A stretch of 24,068 nt of DNA from a virus. This document shows, in pieces, positions 2,052 through 23,928 of the stretch. Location of the stretch: IMG/VR virus record IMGVR_UViG_3300020123_000522, positions 1-24,068 of that record. The stretch is one strand, 5' to 3'. The position numbers and the translations under genes were made by a program. Below the pieces are notes generated by a model. That model worked only from the letters and a program-made list of their open reading frames with translations, was not told the DNA's origin and did no database searches. The first letter of the stretch is position 1; each line of letters starts with the position of its first letter.

Positions 2052-2618
2052 TTATTTATTTGTTCTTCTTAAATATTCAGCCATTAAAAGAGCATCTATA
2101 ATCCCATAATGCTCATTACGACTTCTTTTTGTTGGTATAAAATTCACATTAGGAAAAAGTCTTTTAGCAACTAAAAGAGCTGTTGATTTTGTATCTGTCT
2201 TTTCTTTAAATCCATCTGGAATTTTTTTACCAGTAATTTTATCTTTTTTAAATTTCTGAACTGTATCTGTTTTAAGATGAGTTCCTTCAAAAATATTCTT
2301 TTGCCAAGATTTACTGTGAACTAATGTGAATGGTAATGAATATGCTGTAGAAAAACATTCTAAAATAGCTTTTCCTCTACTAAAAGTCCAATTTGATTTT
2401 GCACTCATTTCAAACATACTCGCCACATCTTCTATAGCTATATGACAATCATATTGGATAAATGATTCAAATAAATCACTTATAGCTGATAAATCATATT
2501 CTTCTTTTATAAGAAAATTTTTAATCAAAAAAATATCAACTTCTTTATTTTCATGAAGAATAACTATAGCTCCATCTTTGCCAGGATCACATCCTATATA
2601 AACTTTTTCTTTGTTCAT
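2052..2618 (-). CDS. RuvC-like Holliday junction resolvase
   Basis: This 188-aa protein has the RNase H-fold pattern of RuvC-type resolvases. An acidic first strand GCDPGKDGAI holds the first catalytic Asp (residue 11). AIEDVASMF holds the Glu after strand 4 (about residue 62). TDTKSTALLVAKRLFP matches the helix conserved in RuvC proteins, and GIIDALLMAEYLRR supplies the last Asp. The family cuts four-way junctions; in phages it debranches replicating DNA before packaging, which fits the terminase genes just downstream. The start ATG overlaps the stop of the homing-endonuclease gene by 4 nt. RuvC length in bacteria is similar (about 170-190 aa). Confidence 0.85.
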   Translation of the reverse strand: MNKEKVYIGCDPGKDGAIVILHENKEVDIFLIKNFLIKEEYDLSAISDLFESFIQYDCHIAIEDVASMFEMSAKSNWTFSRGKAILECFSTAYSLPFTLVHSKSWQKNIFEGTHLKTDTVQKFKKDKITGKKIPDGFKEKTDTKSTALLVAKRLFPNVNFIPTKRSRNEHYGIIDALLMAEYLRRTNK

Positions 2619-3415
2619 TTTTTTAATTTACAATTATTAAAATGATGAGTCATCATTCCAGATTTTCCACCAGATTTTCCACAATAAGGACAAATAACTA
2701 TTTCAGCTAAACTAATTTTAACAAAATCTTTCATTGGAACACCTTTATTCCAAGAAGGTTTACCTTTTTTAGATTTACCCGTTTTTTCAGAACCTTTTTT
2801 AACAAATTCTGATGTTTCTTTTGTTAAACCTTTATTCCAAACAACTCCTTCGTTTTTAAAATATTTTTTACGACCATTTGACACTTTTTTTCCAATAAGA
2901 TCTTTTGTTTTTAAACCTTTATTCCAAGGTTCAACACCTTTTCTTTTTTCTGACATTTTCTTACGACTTTCTAAAGAATGTTTTTTATCTTTCATAGGCT
3001 TTCTCAATTTATTTTTATCTCTCATTGATTCAAGACCTTCTTTTGAAAAATTATGTTTTTTACCTTTTTCTATTATTTGCAATGCTCTTTTTTTTCTTAT
3101 TTTAATTTTAGTTTCTTCATGTAATTTACCACCATTACCGCCTTGTCTTAAATTATAACCAAATTTACTATTTGTAGCAAGATATGTTCTAATCCAAAAA
3201 ATTTCTTTACTATCAAGTTCAATTTGATCTAAAGCTGTATCTATACATTCAACTATAAAATTTTCTTTACCGTGTTTTTTAATTGCTTTTGAAATATAAG
3301 ATTTAGGTTTTGTTTTATAACAAAAATGTCCTTTAATTCTTTCACTTATTTGATGAATAGTCTGCCCTATATAAACTTTCTTACTTATAAGATTTGTTAT
3401 TTTATAGATATACAT
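2615..3415 (-). CDS. GIY-YIG homing endonuclease with WNKG repeats and zinc finger
   Basis: This 266-aa protein starts with a GIY-YIG nuclease domain (residues 1-95). YIYKITNL and KVYIGQT carry the two signature strands, Arg follows at SERIKGH, AIKKHGKENF is the second helix, and the catalytic Glu is in SKEIFWIRTY. The middle is lysine-rich DNA-binding linker with three NUMOD3-type WNKG motifs (PWNKGL, VWNKGL, SWNKGV). The C-terminus carries a C2HC-like finger (CPYCGKSGG ... HHFNNCK). The family makes site-specific breaks in intronless alleles so that its own gene is copied in. Here it is free-standing, squeezed between the 159-aa gene (1 nt away) and the resolvase gene. No intron boundary is visible. 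Confidence 0.93.
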   Translation of the reverse strand: MYIYKITNLISKKVYIGQTIHQISERIKGHFCYKTKPKSYISKAIKKHGKENFIVECIDTALDQIELDSKEIFWIRTYLATNSKFGYNLRQGGNGGKLHEETKIKIRKKRALQIIEKGKKHNFSKEGLESMRDKNKLRKPMKDKKHSLESRKKMSEKRKGVEPWNKGLKTKDLIGKKVSNGRKKYFKNEGVVWNKGLTKETSEFVKKGSEKTGKSKKGKPSWNKGVPMKDFVKISLAEIVICPYCGKSGGKSGMMTHHFNNCKLKK

Positions 3416-3907: not shown

Positions 3908-4336
3908 CTAAATTTTAGGTTTATTTTTAAATAAATTTCTACGTCTTAATTTTTCAGCTTCAATATCGATATTTGGATTTTGATAACAGTGGTCATTATG
4001 TATTAATTTAAGATTACCCATATCAGTAATTTTACCACAGTGAATGCAAGCTTCTTTTTTAATATTTTCTCTTTTCTTATATTTTATTCCAAATTCTTTT
4101 TTAATTTCACTATTTTTCTTTCTCTTTTCTAAAGATGACTTTGAAGGTTTTCGAATTTGTTTTTCTACTTCGATGTTAATGTTTGGATTTTGATAACAAT
4201 GTTCATTATGAAATCTTTCAATATTTGTACAAGAAGCAATTTTACCACAATGAACACAAATAGCTATTTTTTTAGGAACACCTTTAAGTGGACTAACTTT
4301 ACCATCTAATTTTCTTTGTCTTTGAGCTTTACTCAT
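3908..4336 (-). CDS. Double zinc-finger protein, detached tail of a GIY-YIG endonuclease
   Basis: This 142-aa protein has two near-identical finger units: CVHCGKIASCTNIERFHNEH followed by CYQNPNINIE, and CIHCGKITDMGNLKLIHNDH followed by CYQNPNIDIE. Each has a CxxC pair plus His/Cys at the far end. No nuclease motif is present. Its start overlaps the stop of the preceding 110-aa GIY-YIG gene by 4 nt (ATGA), and that protein ends in NNPNINIIKKI, a broken copy of the same repeat. I infer that the two are halves of one former homing endonuclease, with this gene carrying the DNA-recognition tail. It could still act together with the nuclease half as a two-part enzyme. Confidence 0.75.
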   Translation of the reverse strand: MSKAQRQRKLDGKVSPLKGVPKKIAICVHCGKIASCTNIERFHNEHCYQNPNINIEVEKQIRKPSKSSLEKRKKNSEIKKEFGIKYKKRENIKKEACIHCGKITDMGNLKLIHNDHCYQNPNIDIEAEKLRRRNLFKNKPKI

Positions 4337-4665
4337 ATTTTTTTAATAATATTAATATTTGGATTATTAGTAAAAACATCGCTTGATTCTCCACCTATTG
4401 TAATATTATAACCAAATTGTCTATTAGTTGACATATAAGTTCTAATCCAAAAAATTTCTTTTGAAGATAATTCTTCTTTTGAAGAAGCAGAATCTATTTG
4501 AATCCATGAAAAATTTTCTTTTCCATGTTTTTGAATAGCTTTACAAATAAGCATTTTAGAATCTTTTGAATTTTCATGACATATTTTTCGTAATTCTAAA
4601 ATTCTAATAGTTTGTCCAATATAAACTTTATTGTTTAGTAAATTTGTAGCTTTATAAATTATCAT
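4333..4665 (-). CDS. GIY-YIG nuclease domain (homing endonuclease, split or truncated)
   Basis: This 110-aa protein is almost only a GIY-YIG domain. IIYKATNL and KVYIGQT are the signature strands, LELRKICHEN holds the Arg region, AIQKHGKENFSW the second helix, and SKEIFWIRTYMSTN the catalytic Glu. It closely parallels the nuclease at 2615-3415 (shared KHGKENF, SKEIFWIRTY, QFGYN / KFGYN), so the two are paralogues. The DNA-binding tail expected after residue 95 is missing; the end NNPNINIIKKI echoes the finger repeats encoded by the next gene, with which it overlaps by ATGA. A small deletion or frameshift could have produced the split. The gene sits just after SbcC. Confidence 0.85.
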   Translation of the reverse strand: MIIYKATNLLNNKVYIGQTIRILELRKICHENSKDSKMLICKAIQKHGKENFSWIQIDSASSKEELSSKEIFWIRTYMSTNRQFGYNITIGGESSDVFTNNPNINIIKKI

Positions 4666-10696: not shown

Positions 10697-10739
10697 GGAC
10701 AAAAATACACATTTTATTCCAAATAAAAACTTTTTACTT
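10697..10739 (-). promoter_or_regulatory. Palindromic promoter upstream of the SSB gene
   Basis: On the minus strand AAGTAAAAAGTTTTTATTT leads into a 19-bp dyad (10711-10729, plus strand ATTTTATTCCAAATAAAAA), and TATTTTTG follows at 10707-10700, a match to the Bacteroidetes -7 box TAnnTTTG. The SSB ATG is 51 nt beyond the box. The same block occurs at 19619-19660 and, less exactly, at 14938-14970. I infer a phage promoter or a regulator site overlapping one. Confidence 0.65.
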
Positions 10740-10750
10740 AAAATAAATTA

Positions 10751-13126: not shown

Positions 13127-14017
13127 TTAGTCTAAATAAATTATTTCAAATTTGTTTTTCTTAATATAAATCTTTTTTGAATTAAAATCCATTAAAATTG
13201 ATGAATCTTCTTGTTTTATATTTTTAAAATTTCCTTTATAATATTCATCATTAATTCTTATACTTGAGTTTTCCCAAGCAGTGACTTCTGAGTTTTCCCG
13301 AGCAGTGACTTTCGAGTTTTCCCGAGCAGTGACTTTCGAGTTTTCCCGAGCAGTGACTTCTGAGTTTTCCCGAGCAGTGACTTTCGAGTTTCCACAAGCA
13401 GTGACTTTCGAGTTTTCCCGAGCAGTGACTTTCGAGTTTTCCCGAGCAGTGACTTTCGAGTTTCCACAAGCAGTGACTTCTGAGTTTTCCCAAGCAGTGA
13501 CTTTCGAGTTTTCCCAAGCAGTGACTTTCGATTTTTCCCGAGCAGTGACTTCTGAGTTTTCCCAAGCAGTGACTTTCGAGTTTTCCCAAGCAGTGACTTT
13601 CGAGTTTCCACAAGCAGTGACTTTCGAGTTTTCCCGAGCAGTGACTTTCGAGTTTTCCCGAGCAGTGACTTTCGAGTTTCCACAAGCAGTGACTTCTGAG
13701 TTTTCCCGAGCAGTGACTTTCGAGTTTCCTATAGAAATTATTTTCCCTTTGTATTCATGAATCCCATGAAAAAATATTCCAAACTCACTTAATTTTTCTT
13801 GTCCATAATTCTCAAATAATTCAGTTGAAATTATCTTATGTTTAAAAGACCAATTTACATTTGTTTTAATAACATCCCAAAATTCTTCTTGAGTTTTTGA
13901 ATTAATCAGTTTACCAAACTCTTTATCATACGGAGTATTTTCACTCCCACATGCTTTTTCAACAACACACTTATCTAAAATTATTTGTCTAATTTGTCCA
14001 AATGTATATTTTTCCAT
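13127..14017 (-). CDS. Octapeptide-repeat protein with phage N-terminal domain
   Basis: This 296-aa protein has three parts. Residues 1-96 form a compact domain (PYDKEFGKLINSKTQEEFWD; VNWSFKHKII; GIFFHGI) of a kind I know from hypothetical proteins of Bacteroidetes phages and prophages, often joined to short repeats. Residues 97-248 are 19 copies of an eight-residue unit (G/E)NS(K/E)VTA(R/W/C). Residues 249-296 are an unrelated tail. The unit, with one Asn-Ser turn and a Val-Thr-Ala strand, suggests a beta-solenoid. Function is unknown; adsorption or structural scaffolding are guesses, and its place among replication genes argues against a tail protein. The ATG at 14017 follows the tRNA by 31 nt. 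Confidence 0.8.
   Translation of the reverse strand: MEKYTFGQIRQIILDKCVVEKACGSENTPYDKEFGKLINSKTQEEFWDVIKTNVNWSFKHKIISTELFENYGQEKLSEFGIFFHGIHEYKGKIISIGNSKVTARENSEVTACGNSKVTARENSKVTARENSKVTACGNSKVTAWENSKVTAWENSEVTAREKSKVTAWENSKVTAWENSEVTACGNSKVTARENSKVTARENSKVTACGNSKVTARENSEVTARENSKVTARENSKVTARENSEVTAWENSSIRINDEYYKGNFKNIKQEDSSILMDFNSKKIYIKKNKFEIIYLD
13274..13729 (-). repeat. 24-bp tandem array, 19 units
   Basis: The DNA behind the octapeptides repeats with a 24-bp period over 456 bp. Variation is confined to a few positions: CGG, TGG or TGT/GGA at the R/W/C position, and TCG-AAA versus TCA-GAA at the K/E position. One unit has AAA for AAC (N to K). Silent sites are almost invariant, so the array was expanded or homogenised recently. 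The pattern of units 2-5 returns at units 11-14, a higher-order duplication. The tract is clearly richer in G+C than its surroundings and open in three minus-strand frames and one plus-strand frame. Confidence 0.95.
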
Positions 14018-14048
14018 TTTACTATTTTTTAGTTTTAATTCGATTTTG

Positions 14049-14120
14049 TACTTTGTAGGAGAATCGAACTCCTCTTGATTGGTCGAAAACCAACTGTCCT
14101 AACCGATAGACGAACAGAGC
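14049..14120 (-). tRNA. tRNA-Glu (anticodon UUC)
   Basis: A 72-nt cloverleaf is read on the minus strand. The acceptor 5' strand is GCTCTGT with ACAAAGT at the 3' side (one C-A mismatch, a G-U at the end). The D arm is GTCT-loop-GGAC with GGTTA. The anticodon stem GTTGG/CCAAT encloses loop TTTTCGA with anticodon TTC, and the T arm is AGGAG-TTCGATT-CTCCT. CCA is not encoded (ACA follows). It starts 3 nt after the stop of the 75-aa gene, so it must be cut out of the operon transcript. GAA is a common codon in this AT-rich genome. Confidence 0.85.
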
Positions 14121-14937: not shown

Positions 14938-14970
14938 ATGTAAAATTACAACTTTTATTTGAGATAAAAA
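14938..14970 (-). promoter_or_regulatory. Palindromic promoter copy upstream of the 175-aa gene
   Basis: On the minus strand TTTTTATCTCAAATAAAAG leads to TTGTAATTTTACAT. It aligns with the 10697 copy over 33 nt without a gap, most positions agreeing, though the -7-like box is TAATTTTA. The dyad lies at 14952-14970. The first gene's ATG (14888) lies 53 nt beyond the box, against 51 and about 55 nt at the two other copies. Confidence 0.55.
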
Positions 14971-14971
14971 A

Positions 14972-14990
14972 ATTTTATTTAAAATAAAAT
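14972..14990 (-). promoter_or_regulatory. 19-bp perfect palindrome, second copy of the dyad or AT-only terminator
   Basis: ATTTTATTTAAAATAAAAT is a perfect 9-bp dyad around one base. It is the same motif as the dyads in the promoters and lies 20 bp from the one at 14952-14970, about two helical turns. On the minus strand it is followed directly by a run of T, so it might instead (or also) end the modification-operon transcript after dCMP deaminase. Both readings are open. Confidence 0.45.
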
Positions 14991-15043
14991 GACTTTAAAA
15001 GCTAAATGTATTGATTCTCAATATAAAAAAGTTAACTTCATTC

Positions 15044-19618: not shown

Positions 19619-19660
19619 ATGTAAAAATATCATTTTATTTTAAATAAAAACTTTTTACTT
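19619..19660 (-). promoter_or_regulatory. Palindromic promoter of the modification operon
   Basis: On the minus strand AAGTAAAAAGTTTTTATTT (19660-19642), shared exactly with the SSB promoter, leads through a 19-bp dyad (19632-19650, plus strand ATTTTATTTTAAATAAAAA) to TATTTTTA (19628-19621). It starts directly after the DNA polymerase stop codon, so the eight genes down to 15044 can be transcribed apart from the polymerase. Confidence 0.65.
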
Positions 19661-22600
19661 ACAAAATCTTAAACAAACTGTTCTTTCCATGACTAATACT
19701 TGCTTTCTCATTATAAAAATTCACATACCCGCTTCCAATAAAAATCTTACCAACATTTGATCTTATTTCTTCTTGATGTTTTTCCCAATAATCTGCCCAC
19801 AAGGTAACCTCTAAAAAATTTCCATTCTCATTTAGTCGCAACTTACAAGCTTGTCCTTTCTTAGTATTGAATGTCTTACATGATTCTATAATTCCTAAAC
19901 ATACAACATCTTCTCCATCATTATCTGTATCACTAATGTCACTAAATGAGAGATATTTTTGTCCATTGAAAGTCTTAATGCTTCCATTCATCTTACAATT
20001 ATCATAAACCCTATTAAATTGAATGTTACCAATACCACAAAGATTTTTTTGCTTAATCAACCAAAAATATTTCTTTCCAATATTCTCATTCGAATATTCT
20101 TGCAAATCCAAATCTTCTCTTAAATATTGATGTAATAACTTATAACGTTTAGTAATGTTTTCAAGATTCTCAACCTTATCAAAACAACCACAGAGAATAA
20201 AATTAACAACAATAGTTTTATTGATTCTTTTCCCATTCATACGAGTTAAAAAATCTGACAATGATTTGAAGTGGCCATTAAGGTTTCTTTCTTCAATTAT
20301 CTTTTCAACACTTTTTTCTCCAGCTGATTTGATTGAATCTAAAGCCCAATAGATTTTATTCTCTTCAACATCATATCCATATTCTTTACTCGATTGATTA
20401 ATATCTGGCGGAAGTAACTCAATCATTCCAGCTTTTTCAATTTCTAAAATCTTCTTTTCTAAATCATCATCCTTTGAAAATTTTAATGATGTTACCCAAA
20501 ATTCTAATGGATAGTAATATTTGAAAAATGTGCAGACAAAAGCTTCATAAGCATAACAAGCAGCGTGTGATTTATTGAAGCTATATAAAATGAAACTCAT
20601 GATTTTACTTAACACAAAGTCAGCATTTTCTTTTGTACTTCCTTTTTTAATGTAAGCTTCTAAAAAGATATTCTTGAATTTTTGAATTGCTTCTTTATCT
20701 TTGTTTTCAGATGATTCTACCTTAGTCATAGTCTTTCTGAAAGCATCTGAAACTTCTAATGAAGCATCTGTTATGATTTGAAAAGCTTTCATAATCTGTT
20801 CTTGATATACCAAAAGTCCATAAGTTTCTTTTGTCACATCTTCAAGTAAATAATCCAACTGCATTTCAGTTTCACCTCTTTTAATTTTAGCATAATTTAT
20901 ATGAGCTCCAATAGTCATCGCTCCAGGACGAGCAAGTGCATTTGCAGCAATCAAATCTTCAAAACAATCTGGTTTCAAATACTTACAATATTTTTTAAGA
21001 TTATCTGTAGTGAATTGAAACACGTCCTCAGTCAAACCATTTTTCCACAAAGTATCATAGACATCTTTATCTTCAACATCAATGTCTTTCGTCCAATTAA
21101 TATCAATTCCTCTGTTTTGTTTGATTAGCTTTAAAATCATTGAAAACTTATCTAACTGTAAAAGACCAAGAATATCCTCTTTAAGAAAACCAACTTTCTC
21201 ATTTTGTTTACCTTCCCATTCTGAAATTAAAATCCCATCAATCTTTTTCACCGGGATCCAACTATAAATATCTCTTTTATTTCCTTCACTATCTTCTTTT
21301 GGAACTATGATAACCGCTGAAGCATGAATGGATTGATTCTTTGGATTATCAATCGCCAGGTTGATTTTATTAATGAGCTTATGGTTCTTATTGATAAATG
21401 ATTTAAGTTTAGATTCCTTATTAGATTCAATCATCAAGTCCATCATATTGCCATCAGTTGAATCTTTTATTATTGAGGTCATAAAATTACAATCACTATA
21501 ATTCAAATTCATTTCTCGTCCTAAGTCTTTAATGATACTTTTAATTTTGAAGTTTCCAAAAGTTCCAACTGAAGACACATAGTTGAAACCATAACGTCCT
21601 TCCATATATCTCTTTACATCATCGCGAAAAGCTGACTCAACATCAGTGTCTATATCGGGCAATTCTCCGCCTTTTAATCGAGCTTCGTTCAAAAATCTTT
21701 CAAATATAAGTGAGTATTTTATTGGATCAATTTCAGTTATATTAGTCAAATAAGCTGCTATAGATCCTGCACTCGATCCTCTCCCAACTCCAACTAATAT
21801 ATTTTTACTATGACACCAATTGATAATATCACTAAGAATTAAAAAATAATCAATAATTCCACCTTGTTTGATAACTTCAGTTTCCATAGATATTCGATCC
21901 CAATAAATATCTTCATCTTCAACCTTACCAGCTATTTTTCTTTCAAATCCATCTTGAATCAAACCAAAAAACAAATCCTCATTTGTCTTATATTTTTTAG
22001 CTTCTTCAAAAGTCATTTCATACTTTGGCATTTTGTGAGTTTTAGTTTCAATCTGAAAATCACAAAGTTCACTTAACTTTTTTGTATTGCTTATACATTC
22101 ATTAAATAACTTTTCATTGAGTCCTAATGTTCTGAACTTTTCATAAATCTCATCTAATGATTTGAAGTGCTGATCTTTTGATTGATATTTGAAACCAACT
22201 TTTCCAATCTTGTTCAATAATGTTTTTATCTCATAATCTTCTTGGTCTAAATAGTAAGCATCTTCAAGTAAAATTGGTTGAATTCCATTTGGCCATTTAC
22301 TATAGTAATTTAAAAATAATTGAGTGTTCAACAATATTTTTTTGTCATACTCATTTGATGAAAATTCAGTTAAACTAATTTGATAAAATAAATCATCATT
22401 TTCTGTATTCCAAATATTTATAAAGTCAACAAATCTTTTTTCATTAAAATCACAACTATTAGAAATAATACAACTTAAACCTTCATTATGTTCTACTAAA
22501 AAATCATAAGTAACAAATCCATTATTGAACACATTTATTTGAGCATTGATGTTTAAGAGATTTTGCCAACCAATTTCATTTTTGACGAATAACTTAATTT

Positions 22601-23135
22601 CAAATAAATTATCTTCATCTTTGACTAATATAGTTTCACCAATGATTGATTTAATCTCTTTTTTCAAACATATTTCTTGAAATTTCAATGTACCGGCTAA
22701 TGTGTTATATTCACAGATTCCTAATGAAGTAATTCCTAAAAATTTAGCTTTTTTAACCCAATCTTCAATGACACGACTTCCATTACATAATTCATAACCA
22801 TCATGGATGCCTAAAAATGTATAAGGACTTTTTATCTCTTGTCTTGCTAATCCAAAGTATTTGAAAAGGCTCAGTTCTGCTTTTTCTTTTGAAGTTGAAA
22901 AGTAGTACCATAAACTACCAAAACAAAATAAGTAAAAATCAGGTTTGAAATTCTCTATGAATGAGTAATCATTTGAGTCTAAGATGAGATTGAAATCTTC
23001 ATCAAATAACTTTTGATCGCCTTCAATTTCTTTTGACTCTATGATGATAAAAATTTTCTCATCTATCTTTATGATTTTACTATTGATAAATTCATAATCT
23101 AAAAGATTGTTTTTAAGCCAGATTAATAGTTCCAT
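19659..23135 (-). CDS. DNA polymerase III alpha subunit (DnaE-type, family C)
   Basis: This 1158-aa replicative polymerase has the family C catalytic core. VGVGRGSSAGSIAAYL (448-463) and LPDIDTD (492-498) hold catalytic D494 and D496, and KEDILGLLQLDKF holds D654. IHASAVIIV, ALARPGAM, YQEQIMKAFQ and FNKSHAACYAYEAF (853-866) are the other conserved blocks. A tandem helix-hairpin-helix region follows (908-968), and a C-terminal OB domain (1075-1158). Residues 1-100 precede a PHP domain that has lost most metal ligands: GIHDGYE replaces HxHxxxS and CEYNTLAG replaces TDHGNMFG, so PHP proofreading is unlikely. No DnaQ-type exonuclease is fused. It lies downstream of the iteron-like repeats. Confidence 0.95.
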   Translation of the reverse strand: MELLIWLKNNLLDYEFINSKIIKIDEKIFIIIESKEIEGDQKLFDEDFNLILDSNDYSFIENFKPDFYLFCFGSLWYYFSTSKEKAELSLFKYFGLARQEIKSPYTFLGIHDGYELCNGSRVIEDWVKKAKFLGITSLGICEYNTLAGTLKFQEICLKKEIKSIIGETILVKDEDNLFEIKLFVKNEIGWQNLLNINAQINVFNNGFVTYDFLVEHNEGLSCIISNSCDFNEKRFVDFINIWNTENDDLFYQISLTEFSSNEYDKKILLNTQLFLNYYSKWPNGIQPILLEDAYYLDQEDYEIKTLLNKIGKVGFKYQSKDQHFKSLDEIYEKFRTLGLNEKLFNECISNTKKLSELCDFQIETKTHKMPKYEMTFEEAKKYKTNEDLFFGLIQDGFERKIAGKVEDEDIYWDRISMETEVIKQGGIIDYFLILSDIINWCHSKNILVGVGRGSSAGSIAAYLTNITEIDPIKYSLIFERFLNEARLKGGELPDIDTDVESAFRDDVKRYMEGRYGFNYVSSVGTFGNFKIKSIIKDLGREMNLNYSDCNFMTSIIKDSTDGNMMDLMIESNKESKLKSFINKNHKLINKINLAIDNPKNQSIHASAVIIVPKEDSEGNKRDIYSWIPVKKIDGILISEWEGKQNEKVGFLKEDILGLLQLDKFSMILKLIKQNRGIDINWTKDIDVEDKDVYDTLWKNGLTEDVFQFTTDNLKKYCKYLKPDCFEDLIAANALARPGAMTIGAHINYAKIKRGETEMQLDYLLEDVTKETYGLLVYQEQIMKAFQIITDASLEVSDAFRKTMTKVESSENKDKEAIQKFKNIFLEAYIKKGSTKENADFVLSKIMSFILYSFNKSHAACYAYEAFVCTFFKYYYPLEFWVTSLKFSKDDDLEKKILEIEKAGMIELLPPDINQSSKEYGYDVEENKIYWALDSIKSAGEKSVEKIIEERNLNGHFKSLSDFLTRMNGKRINKTIVVNFILCGCFDKVENLENITKRYKLLHQYLREDLDLQEYSNENIGKKYFWLIKQKNLCGIGNIQFNRVYDNCKMNGSIKTFNGQKYLSFSDISDTDNDGEDVVCLGIIESCKTFNTKKGQACKLRLNENGNFLEVTLWADYWEKHQEEIRSNVGKIFIGSGYVNFYNEKASISHGKNSLFKIL

Positions 23136-23169: not shown

Positions 23170-23186
23170 GCGAATGTTTCATTCGC
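23170..23186 (-). terminator. 7-bp hairpin followed by T-run
   Basis: GCGAATG, a 3-nt loop, then CATTCGC form a perfect stem; on the minus strand TTTTT follows at once. This is a weak intrinsic-terminator shape that could stop the winged-helix transcript before the polymerase gene, or act as a leader hairpin 35 nt before its ATG. Confidence 0.45.
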
Positions 23187-23231
23187 AAATTATCTTTCCT
23201 TCTTTTTATCTTTCCTAATTTTCCTTCCTTG

Positions 23232-23296
23232 TATGAAATTTTGTTACTATATCTATGAAATTTTGTTACTATCATGATATGAAATTTTGTTACTGT
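23232..23296. repeat. Three iteron-like direct repeats
   Basis: TATGAAATTTTGTTACT followed by AT, AT or GT occurs at 23232-23250, 23254-23272 and 23278-23296. The first 17 bases are identical in all three, and starts are 22 and 24 bp apart, close to two helical turns. They fill the stretch between the winged-helix gene and the polymerase gene and are the kind of array a replication initiator or a repressor binds. The last copy runs to the stop codon of the winged-helix gene. Confidence 0.8.
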
Positions 23297-23928
23297 TAAG
23301 CTACTTTTAAATAGCTATTTATTTGTTTTTTTAAAAATTCAAAAGAATCATTCCATTTATTAGTTGTTTCAAGATATTTAGTTGTTTTATCTTTAACGAT
23401 AAAATTTTCATCTATTAAAGAATTAATCATCCTATGAATTTGCATTTTACTTAACTTAAACTCTTCAGCTAATTTTTCTTTACTTATAGAACATTTAAAA
23501 TTTGAATTTTTAAATGAACGAATTCTTTCAAGTAATATATATTCGTTAGAAGTCAAATCAAAATCAGTCTTTAAAGAAAAAAAGAATAAAACATAAAAAG
23601 ATTTTTCTTTTTCATTTTTCTTAATTCTATTTTTTTCAATTTCTATTTTTTTACACCATTCTTTTGAAGGTTGTAAATATTTAGTTTTTTCATCTTTAAA
23701 AAGAAACTCTTCTTTAATTAAATAATTAATAATTGTAAAAACTTGTCGTTCACTTAATCCAAGTTCTTTAGCTAAACTTCTTTTACTCATTGAACAAGAA
23801 TAATCATATTTTTTACTATAACTTAAATTATTTATTCTTTCTAAAACAAGGTATTCGTGTATAGATAGTCCTAAGTCTTTCTTTAAAGAAAGAAAAATAG
23901 TCACATATATTAGATCTTTATTTATCAT
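23296..23928 (-). CDS. Protein with two winged-helix repeats (initiator or regulator)
   Basis: This 210-aa protein is an internal duplication. Half one (about 15-88) has LSIHEYLVLERINNLSYSKK, SKRSLAKELGLSERQVFTII, LIKEEFLFKDEKTKYLQ and SKEWCKK. Half two (about 108-200) has LTSNEYILLERIRSF, SKEKLAEEFKLSKMQIHRMI, LIDENFIVKDKTTKYLETT and NKWNDSF. Each is a winged helix of the type seen in phage and plasmid replication or regulatory proteins. Two tandem winged helices are the layout of Rep_3-type initiators, which bind iterons, and three direct repeats lie directly behind this gene. I infer that it binds them; whether as replication initiator or as regulator of the polymerase gene is open. No ATPase motif is present. 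Confidence 0.75.
   Translation of the reverse strand: MINKDLIYVTIFLSLKKDLGLSIHEYLVLERINNLSYSKKYDYSCSMSKRSLAKELGLSERQVFTIINYLIKEEFLFKDEKTKYLQPSKEWCKKIEIEKNRIKKNEKEKSFYVLFFFSLKTDFDLTSNEYILLERIRSFKNSNFKCSISKEKLAEEFKLSKMQIHRMINSLIDENFIVKDKTTKYLETTNKWNDSFEFLKKQINSYLKVA

Follow-up and report, generated by a model that had tools for sequence, protein, structure and literature searches.

Three identical 17-bp direct repeats were located between the gene for a 210-aa protein built of two winged helices and the gene for a DnaE-type replicative polymerase in the window, by which we mean the whole 24,068-nucleotide stretch of viral DNA analyzed here. Judging from the sequence, these repeats are probably iterons of the phage replication origin, with the 210-aa protein serving as its initiator. 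We regard the locus as a lambda-type initiator-origin arrangement in modified form, carried by a Bacteroidota phage group that has received little study; this assignment is supported but unproven. The general kind of arrangement is known, and the one described here differs from it by the duplication of the winged-helix domain without a C-terminal domain, by iterons that lie outside the gene and have no dyad symmetry, and by its place before a polymerase gene.

Table 1. Features of the candidate origin region, in order of window position.
Feature	Position	Strand	Sequence, placement or basis
DnaE-type replicative polymerase, 1,158 aa, with DNA_pol3_alpha and PHP domains	19659-23135	-	Family search
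Terminator-like hairpin GCGAATG-AAA-CATTCGC, then TTTTT	23170-23186	-	34 nt ahead of the dnaE start
Strand-asymmetric tract, 42 nt, candidate unwinding element	23190-23231	-	88% purine; AGGAAAGATAA twice
Candidate iteron, copy 1	23232-23248	+	TATGAAATTTTGTTACT; read in gene orientation, AGTAACAAAATTTCATA
Candidate iteron, copy 2	23254-23270	+	Same 17 bp as copy 1
Candidate iteron, copy 3	23278-23294	+	Same 17 bp; 1 bp off the winged-helix gene stop codon
210-aa protein, two winged helices of the O/DnaD-N type, candidate initiator	23296-23928	-	Families and internal alignment
Upstream gene truncated at the contig end, 3' part, encoding the last portion of a third winged helix	23936-24067	-	Alignment

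The first-pass annotation had reported three identical 17-bp copies spaced 22 and 24 bp apart, placed between the winged-helix and polymerase genes and directly downstream of the former, and all of this was borne out. Exact copies of TATGAAATTTTGTTACT begin at 23232, 23254 and 23278, with start-to-start distances of about two helical turns, and the array is separated from the winged-helix gene by 1 bp and from the dnaE start by 96 bp. The search for further copies that the annotation had proposed found no fourth copy in the 24,068-base record with up to three mismatches allowed, the record being a 24-kb genome fragment to which both the copy count and the origin candidates apply. The GC-skew analysis that it had also proposed was run and gave a uniform, uninformative profile along the window, in which all genes lie on one strand.

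When the region was shuffled 3,000 times under a first-order Markov model, no exact three-copy word with comparable spacing exceeded 11 nt, a length reached once. The 17-bp units are identical and the spacers between them are unequal in both length and sequence, which fits protein sites better than a recent duplication. Exact repeat pairs were absent from the viral contigs searched. Within the 24-kb record, no copy of TATGAAATTTTGTTACT was present ahead of the 210-aa winged-helix gene itself, and autoregulation through these repeats was therefore rejected.

Read along the minus strand, the gene cut by the contig end is followed by the 210-aa gene, the repeats, the purine tract, the hairpin with its T tail and the polymerase gene. 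Only 0.02% of the 42-nt stretches of the window are as purine-skewed as the tract beside the array, which includes an 11-nt pair (AGGAAAGATAA) and whose A+T content does not exceed the window average. The hairpin is the sole terminator-like site found on the minus strand of the window. The tail of the cut gene scored 70 when aligned to winged helix 2 of the 210-aa protein, compared to at most 48 in 500 shuffles, indicating that the locus encodes three or more winged helices of the same kind in succession. Relatives of the window phage include Chryseobacterium phage MA9V-3, which is 103 kb long, and G001, a viral contig of 97 kb, and the replication and recombination genes shared by the three occur in the same order.

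The two halves of the 210-aa protein are 43% identical over 95 residues. Its best family match was PHROG 270 (phrog_270), 'replication initiation protein', at 2e-15, followed by O-like initiators (7e-11), DnaD_N (2e-8) and Phage_rep_O (5e-7). The curated cut-offs were exceeded for Phage_rep_O (30.7 bits, cut-off 28.7), DnaD_N (34.7, cut-off 27) and HTH_36 (36.7, cut-off 25), these being whole-protein Pfam scores that sum two domains. MarR and similar regulator families, in addition to HTH_36, also matched the protein. The two winged helices occupy all 210 residues, and the C-terminal domain that contacts the helicase loader is absent; a separate protein could supply the missing contact. The halves carry unlike recognition helices (SERQVFTIINYL and SKMQIHRMINSL) and thus probably contact distinct half-sites. 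Searches of viral contigs, genome contigs, phages and plasmids by tblastn and peptide patterns yielded no homologue of the 210-aa protein; PLSDB plasmids gave no match, and a sequence search of solved structures returned nothing useful.

The winged-helix type was sought in related phages by profile, with repeats disregarded, and was present in MA9V-3, in contig G008 and in the near-identical pair G009/G017; the profile did not find it in G001. All 127 noncoding gaps of five genomes were then scanned for three-copy arrays with a period of 14-30. The window array scored highest (56 bits), followed by those of G008 (35.5), G009 (35.5) and MA9V-3 (25.6), and all four gaps adjoin winged-helix genes. 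If about eight gaps flank such genes, the chance of all four top places falling beside them is approximately 7e-6 (C(8,4)/C(127,4)), although the repeats of G008, G009 and MA9V-3 had been spotted by eye beforehand and the scan thus ranks rather than discovers them. The fifth-ranked array, in a different gap, scored 25.5, which makes MA9V-3 marginal by score; its 22-bp repeat pair is nonetheless clear, and its array lies upstream of its winged-helix gene. The repeat sequence differs in each of the four genomes, no two having it in common. Further arrays occur in the coding DNA of these genomes, where most are coding repeats of the triplet type or rich in glycine. Separately, the winged helices of G009 (L089 3420) and a human-gut phage scaffold (L123 3368) are 47% identical, and the iterons at L123 and L089 are similar, both with 16-bp spacing (AATAAAATACTTAA and ATAAAGTACT).

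An additional 17 loci (16 independent) were collected from annotated phages by tblastn with the G008, G009 and MA9V-3 proteins and chosen by rank and taxonomic spread, not by repeats. Nine of these 17 loci (16 independent) had an array scoring at least 30 in the interval from -30 to +130 bp relative to the point where the winged-helix match ends, namely HU1, LspM-01 (vB_LspM-01), Cruim01, PaV-LD, SE-1, Ceridwen, CNPH82, MT837066 and MT837225, and no array with such a score occurred elsewhere in the survey loci. The MT837066 array and the larger MT837225 array have a period of 30 bp and may represent repeated coding sequence for a protein linker. Seven of the 16 independent initiator loci had no array in the scan; no clear array was found in Leptospira phage LE1, Flavobacterium phages FPSV-S2 and Fpv5 or Bacteroides phage C3_41T2LP. 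Phage lambda, with its annotated iterons, served as the positive control and scored 35, the array lying at +18 bp relative to the end of the winged-helix portion of O. In several unrelated phages, TAATACAAGTA-like A+T-rich repeats follow the in-gene iterons of O/DnaD-like genes (L120 3392-3440, L129 3320-3370, L130 3356-3380 and L119 3352-3380); they may represent an unwinding motif common to these phages, or else encode an NNTS linker.

A three-copy array in the -30 to +130 bp interval around the end of the winged helix is shared by the window, HU1, vB_LspM-01, Cruim01, PaV-LD, SE-1, Ceridwen, G008 and G009, and the proteins of those phages have one winged helix whereas the window protein has two. 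In the annotated gene models of the first six phages the array lies in the gene, before the C-terminal part, while in G008 and G009 it follows the stop codon, as in the window. The window units have no detectable dyad symmetry (p = 0.76 against column shuffles), and p fell below 0.05 in six of 11 single-helix arrays, lambda included (p = 0.01). With only these six passing, dyad symmetry was rejected as a clean mark separating single- from double-helix proteins. The missing symmetry in the window fits a fused pseudo-dimer, yet some single-helix loci also lack clear symmetry, and the observation is only suggestive.

Lambdoid origins lie centrally within gene O and are made up of iterons plus an AT-rich tract (PMC7466680). 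The lambda iterons are inverted repeats bound by O dimers, and the A+T-rich region beside them has nearly all of its purines in one strand (PMC5043065). The window locus resembles lambda in the O/DnaD-N type of its winged helix, in iterons of 17-18 bp spaced 20-24 bp directly behind the winged-helix coding part, and in an adjoining one-strand purine tract, where the agreement is in strand asymmetry and not in A+T excess. In contrast to lambda, the iterons follow the gene stop instead of lying inside the gene, the units are not palindromic, the winged helix is duplicated in one chain, the C-terminal domain is missing, and no gene for a lambda-P-type loader comes next. The first-pass annotation knew of no such array described for this protein type; the point does not hold, as iterons beside an O-type winged helix are standard for lambda.

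That annotation had also likened the layout to that of Rep_3 initiators and had proposed either a phage origin or an operator of the polymerase gene. The likeness in layout stands, as Rep_3 iteron plasmids and the window have in common two winged helices per chain and direct, non-palindromic iterons about two helical turns apart. It does not extend beyond layout: the two window winged helices closely resemble one another and belong to the O/DnaD type, and membership was rejected as Rep_3 families were not among the best 25 of 41 Pfam matches of the 210-aa protein. The annotation is partly supported: its origin proposal gained strength from the phrog_270 match, the family cut-offs exceeded and the arrays at the corresponding place beside related initiator genes, including lambda O.

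In the mechanism that we propose for such an origin, the 210-aa protein would bind one unit per chain as a built-in pseudo-dimer, and the winged-helix protein encoded upstream would perhaps join it in binding the three phased direct repeats. Wrapping of the DNA by three phased chains would follow, with opening of the adjacent purine tract. The replisome would load at the opened tract with the DnaE polymerase, together with a helicase and primase expected elsewhere in the genome; a DnaB-like helicase, such as the one encoded by G001, would have to load without a C-terminal recruiting domain of the initiator. A more specific version, which we put forward only tentatively, is that a lambda-type origin has been rebuilt in plasmid style: the O-type winged helix may have been duplicated in one chain and the C-terminal domain lost, giving a fused pseudo-dimer whose two different recognition helices would contact non-palindromic direct iterons lying beyond the gene, another winged-helix gene being part of the cluster.

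The repeats could instead be an operator on which the 210-aa protein controls dnaE and the replication operon behind it, with the hairpin insulating dnaE from the upstream gene. The position of the array 96 bp ahead of dnaE, the hairpin separating the two, a TATAGT-like -10 hexamer on the minus strand at the repeat edge and the matches of the protein to HTH_36, MarR and similar regulator families are all consistent with such control. Transcription of the winged-helix gene could stop at the hairpin and T tail; dnaE would then depend on a separate promoter, which might lie close to the repeats. However, promoter-like matches are no more frequent than chance predicts (28 found against an expected 28.7), and the best family matches of the protein are replication initiators. 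Moreover, no array was found ahead of dnaE in any DnaE relative with upstream sequence, so the array goes with the winged-helix gene and not with dnaE, and a conserved array-dnaE pairing was rejected because only the window phage has an array before dnaE. An operator function, the main rival to the origin reading, is for these reasons unlikely, though still worth considering. Iteron plasmids limit their replication by autoregulation, and an origin combined with an operator, through which the initiator would limit its own replisome, would suit an array that separates the initiator gene from the polymerase gene and is accompanied both by an asymmetric tract and by a terminator-like hairpin; each of the two functions is itself read from sequence, and we give the combination a small chance. 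The least probable reading is that the repeats are a site for another host or phage protein, or a chance remnant of local duplication, unrelated to the winged-helix protein: a large tandem repeat does occur in a gene at 13.2-13.8 kb of the same contig, but identical units with unequal spacers are not expected from recent tandem duplication, and arrays recur beside this winged-helix gene type.

In several relatives (L025, L026, L030, L045 and L090-L092) the phage dnaE is split. The split takes the form of two adjacent genes in Cellulophaga and Tenacibaculum phages, and in contigs as much as several kilobases can separate the pieces, so phage dnaE may contain inserts, for example inteins or introns.

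Several other features of the window were recorded. The gene at 13127-14017 (minus strand) contains about 20 tandem 24-nt units encoding ENSKVTAR/W-type octapeptides, which weakly resemble ice-nucleation and DUF2345 repeats. A 41-nt A+T-rich repeat (family D2), 76-85% identical among its copies at 10710-10750, 14951-14991 and 19631-19671, lies in the leader of three minus-strand genes and is a candidate phage promoter or leader motif. The Rfam search of the window returned tRNA only; the tRNA-Glu gene at 14048-14120 (minus strand) is 86% identical to a Serratia phage tRNA-Glu and is the sole part of the window with nucleotide similarity to known phages. Two minus-strand ORFs (2615-3415 and 4333-4665), whose starts look by eye like those of GIY-YIG homing endonucleases, have diverged repeats in common (D3, D10) and are set among recombination genes.

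To our knowledge, the origins of the approximately 100-kb DnaE-encoding Bacteroidota phages have not been mapped, and a search of the open-access literature on Bacteroidetes phages and iterons found nothing. The array described here provides a precise origin candidate for these phages, as well as a search rule, namely a three-copy array of 15-30 bp adjoining an O/DnaD-type winged helix. It suggests a path from a dimeric initiator that binds palindromes to a monomer that binds direct repeats, and a lambda-type origin rebuilt in this manner would, if true, represent an independent route to the Rep_3 layout.
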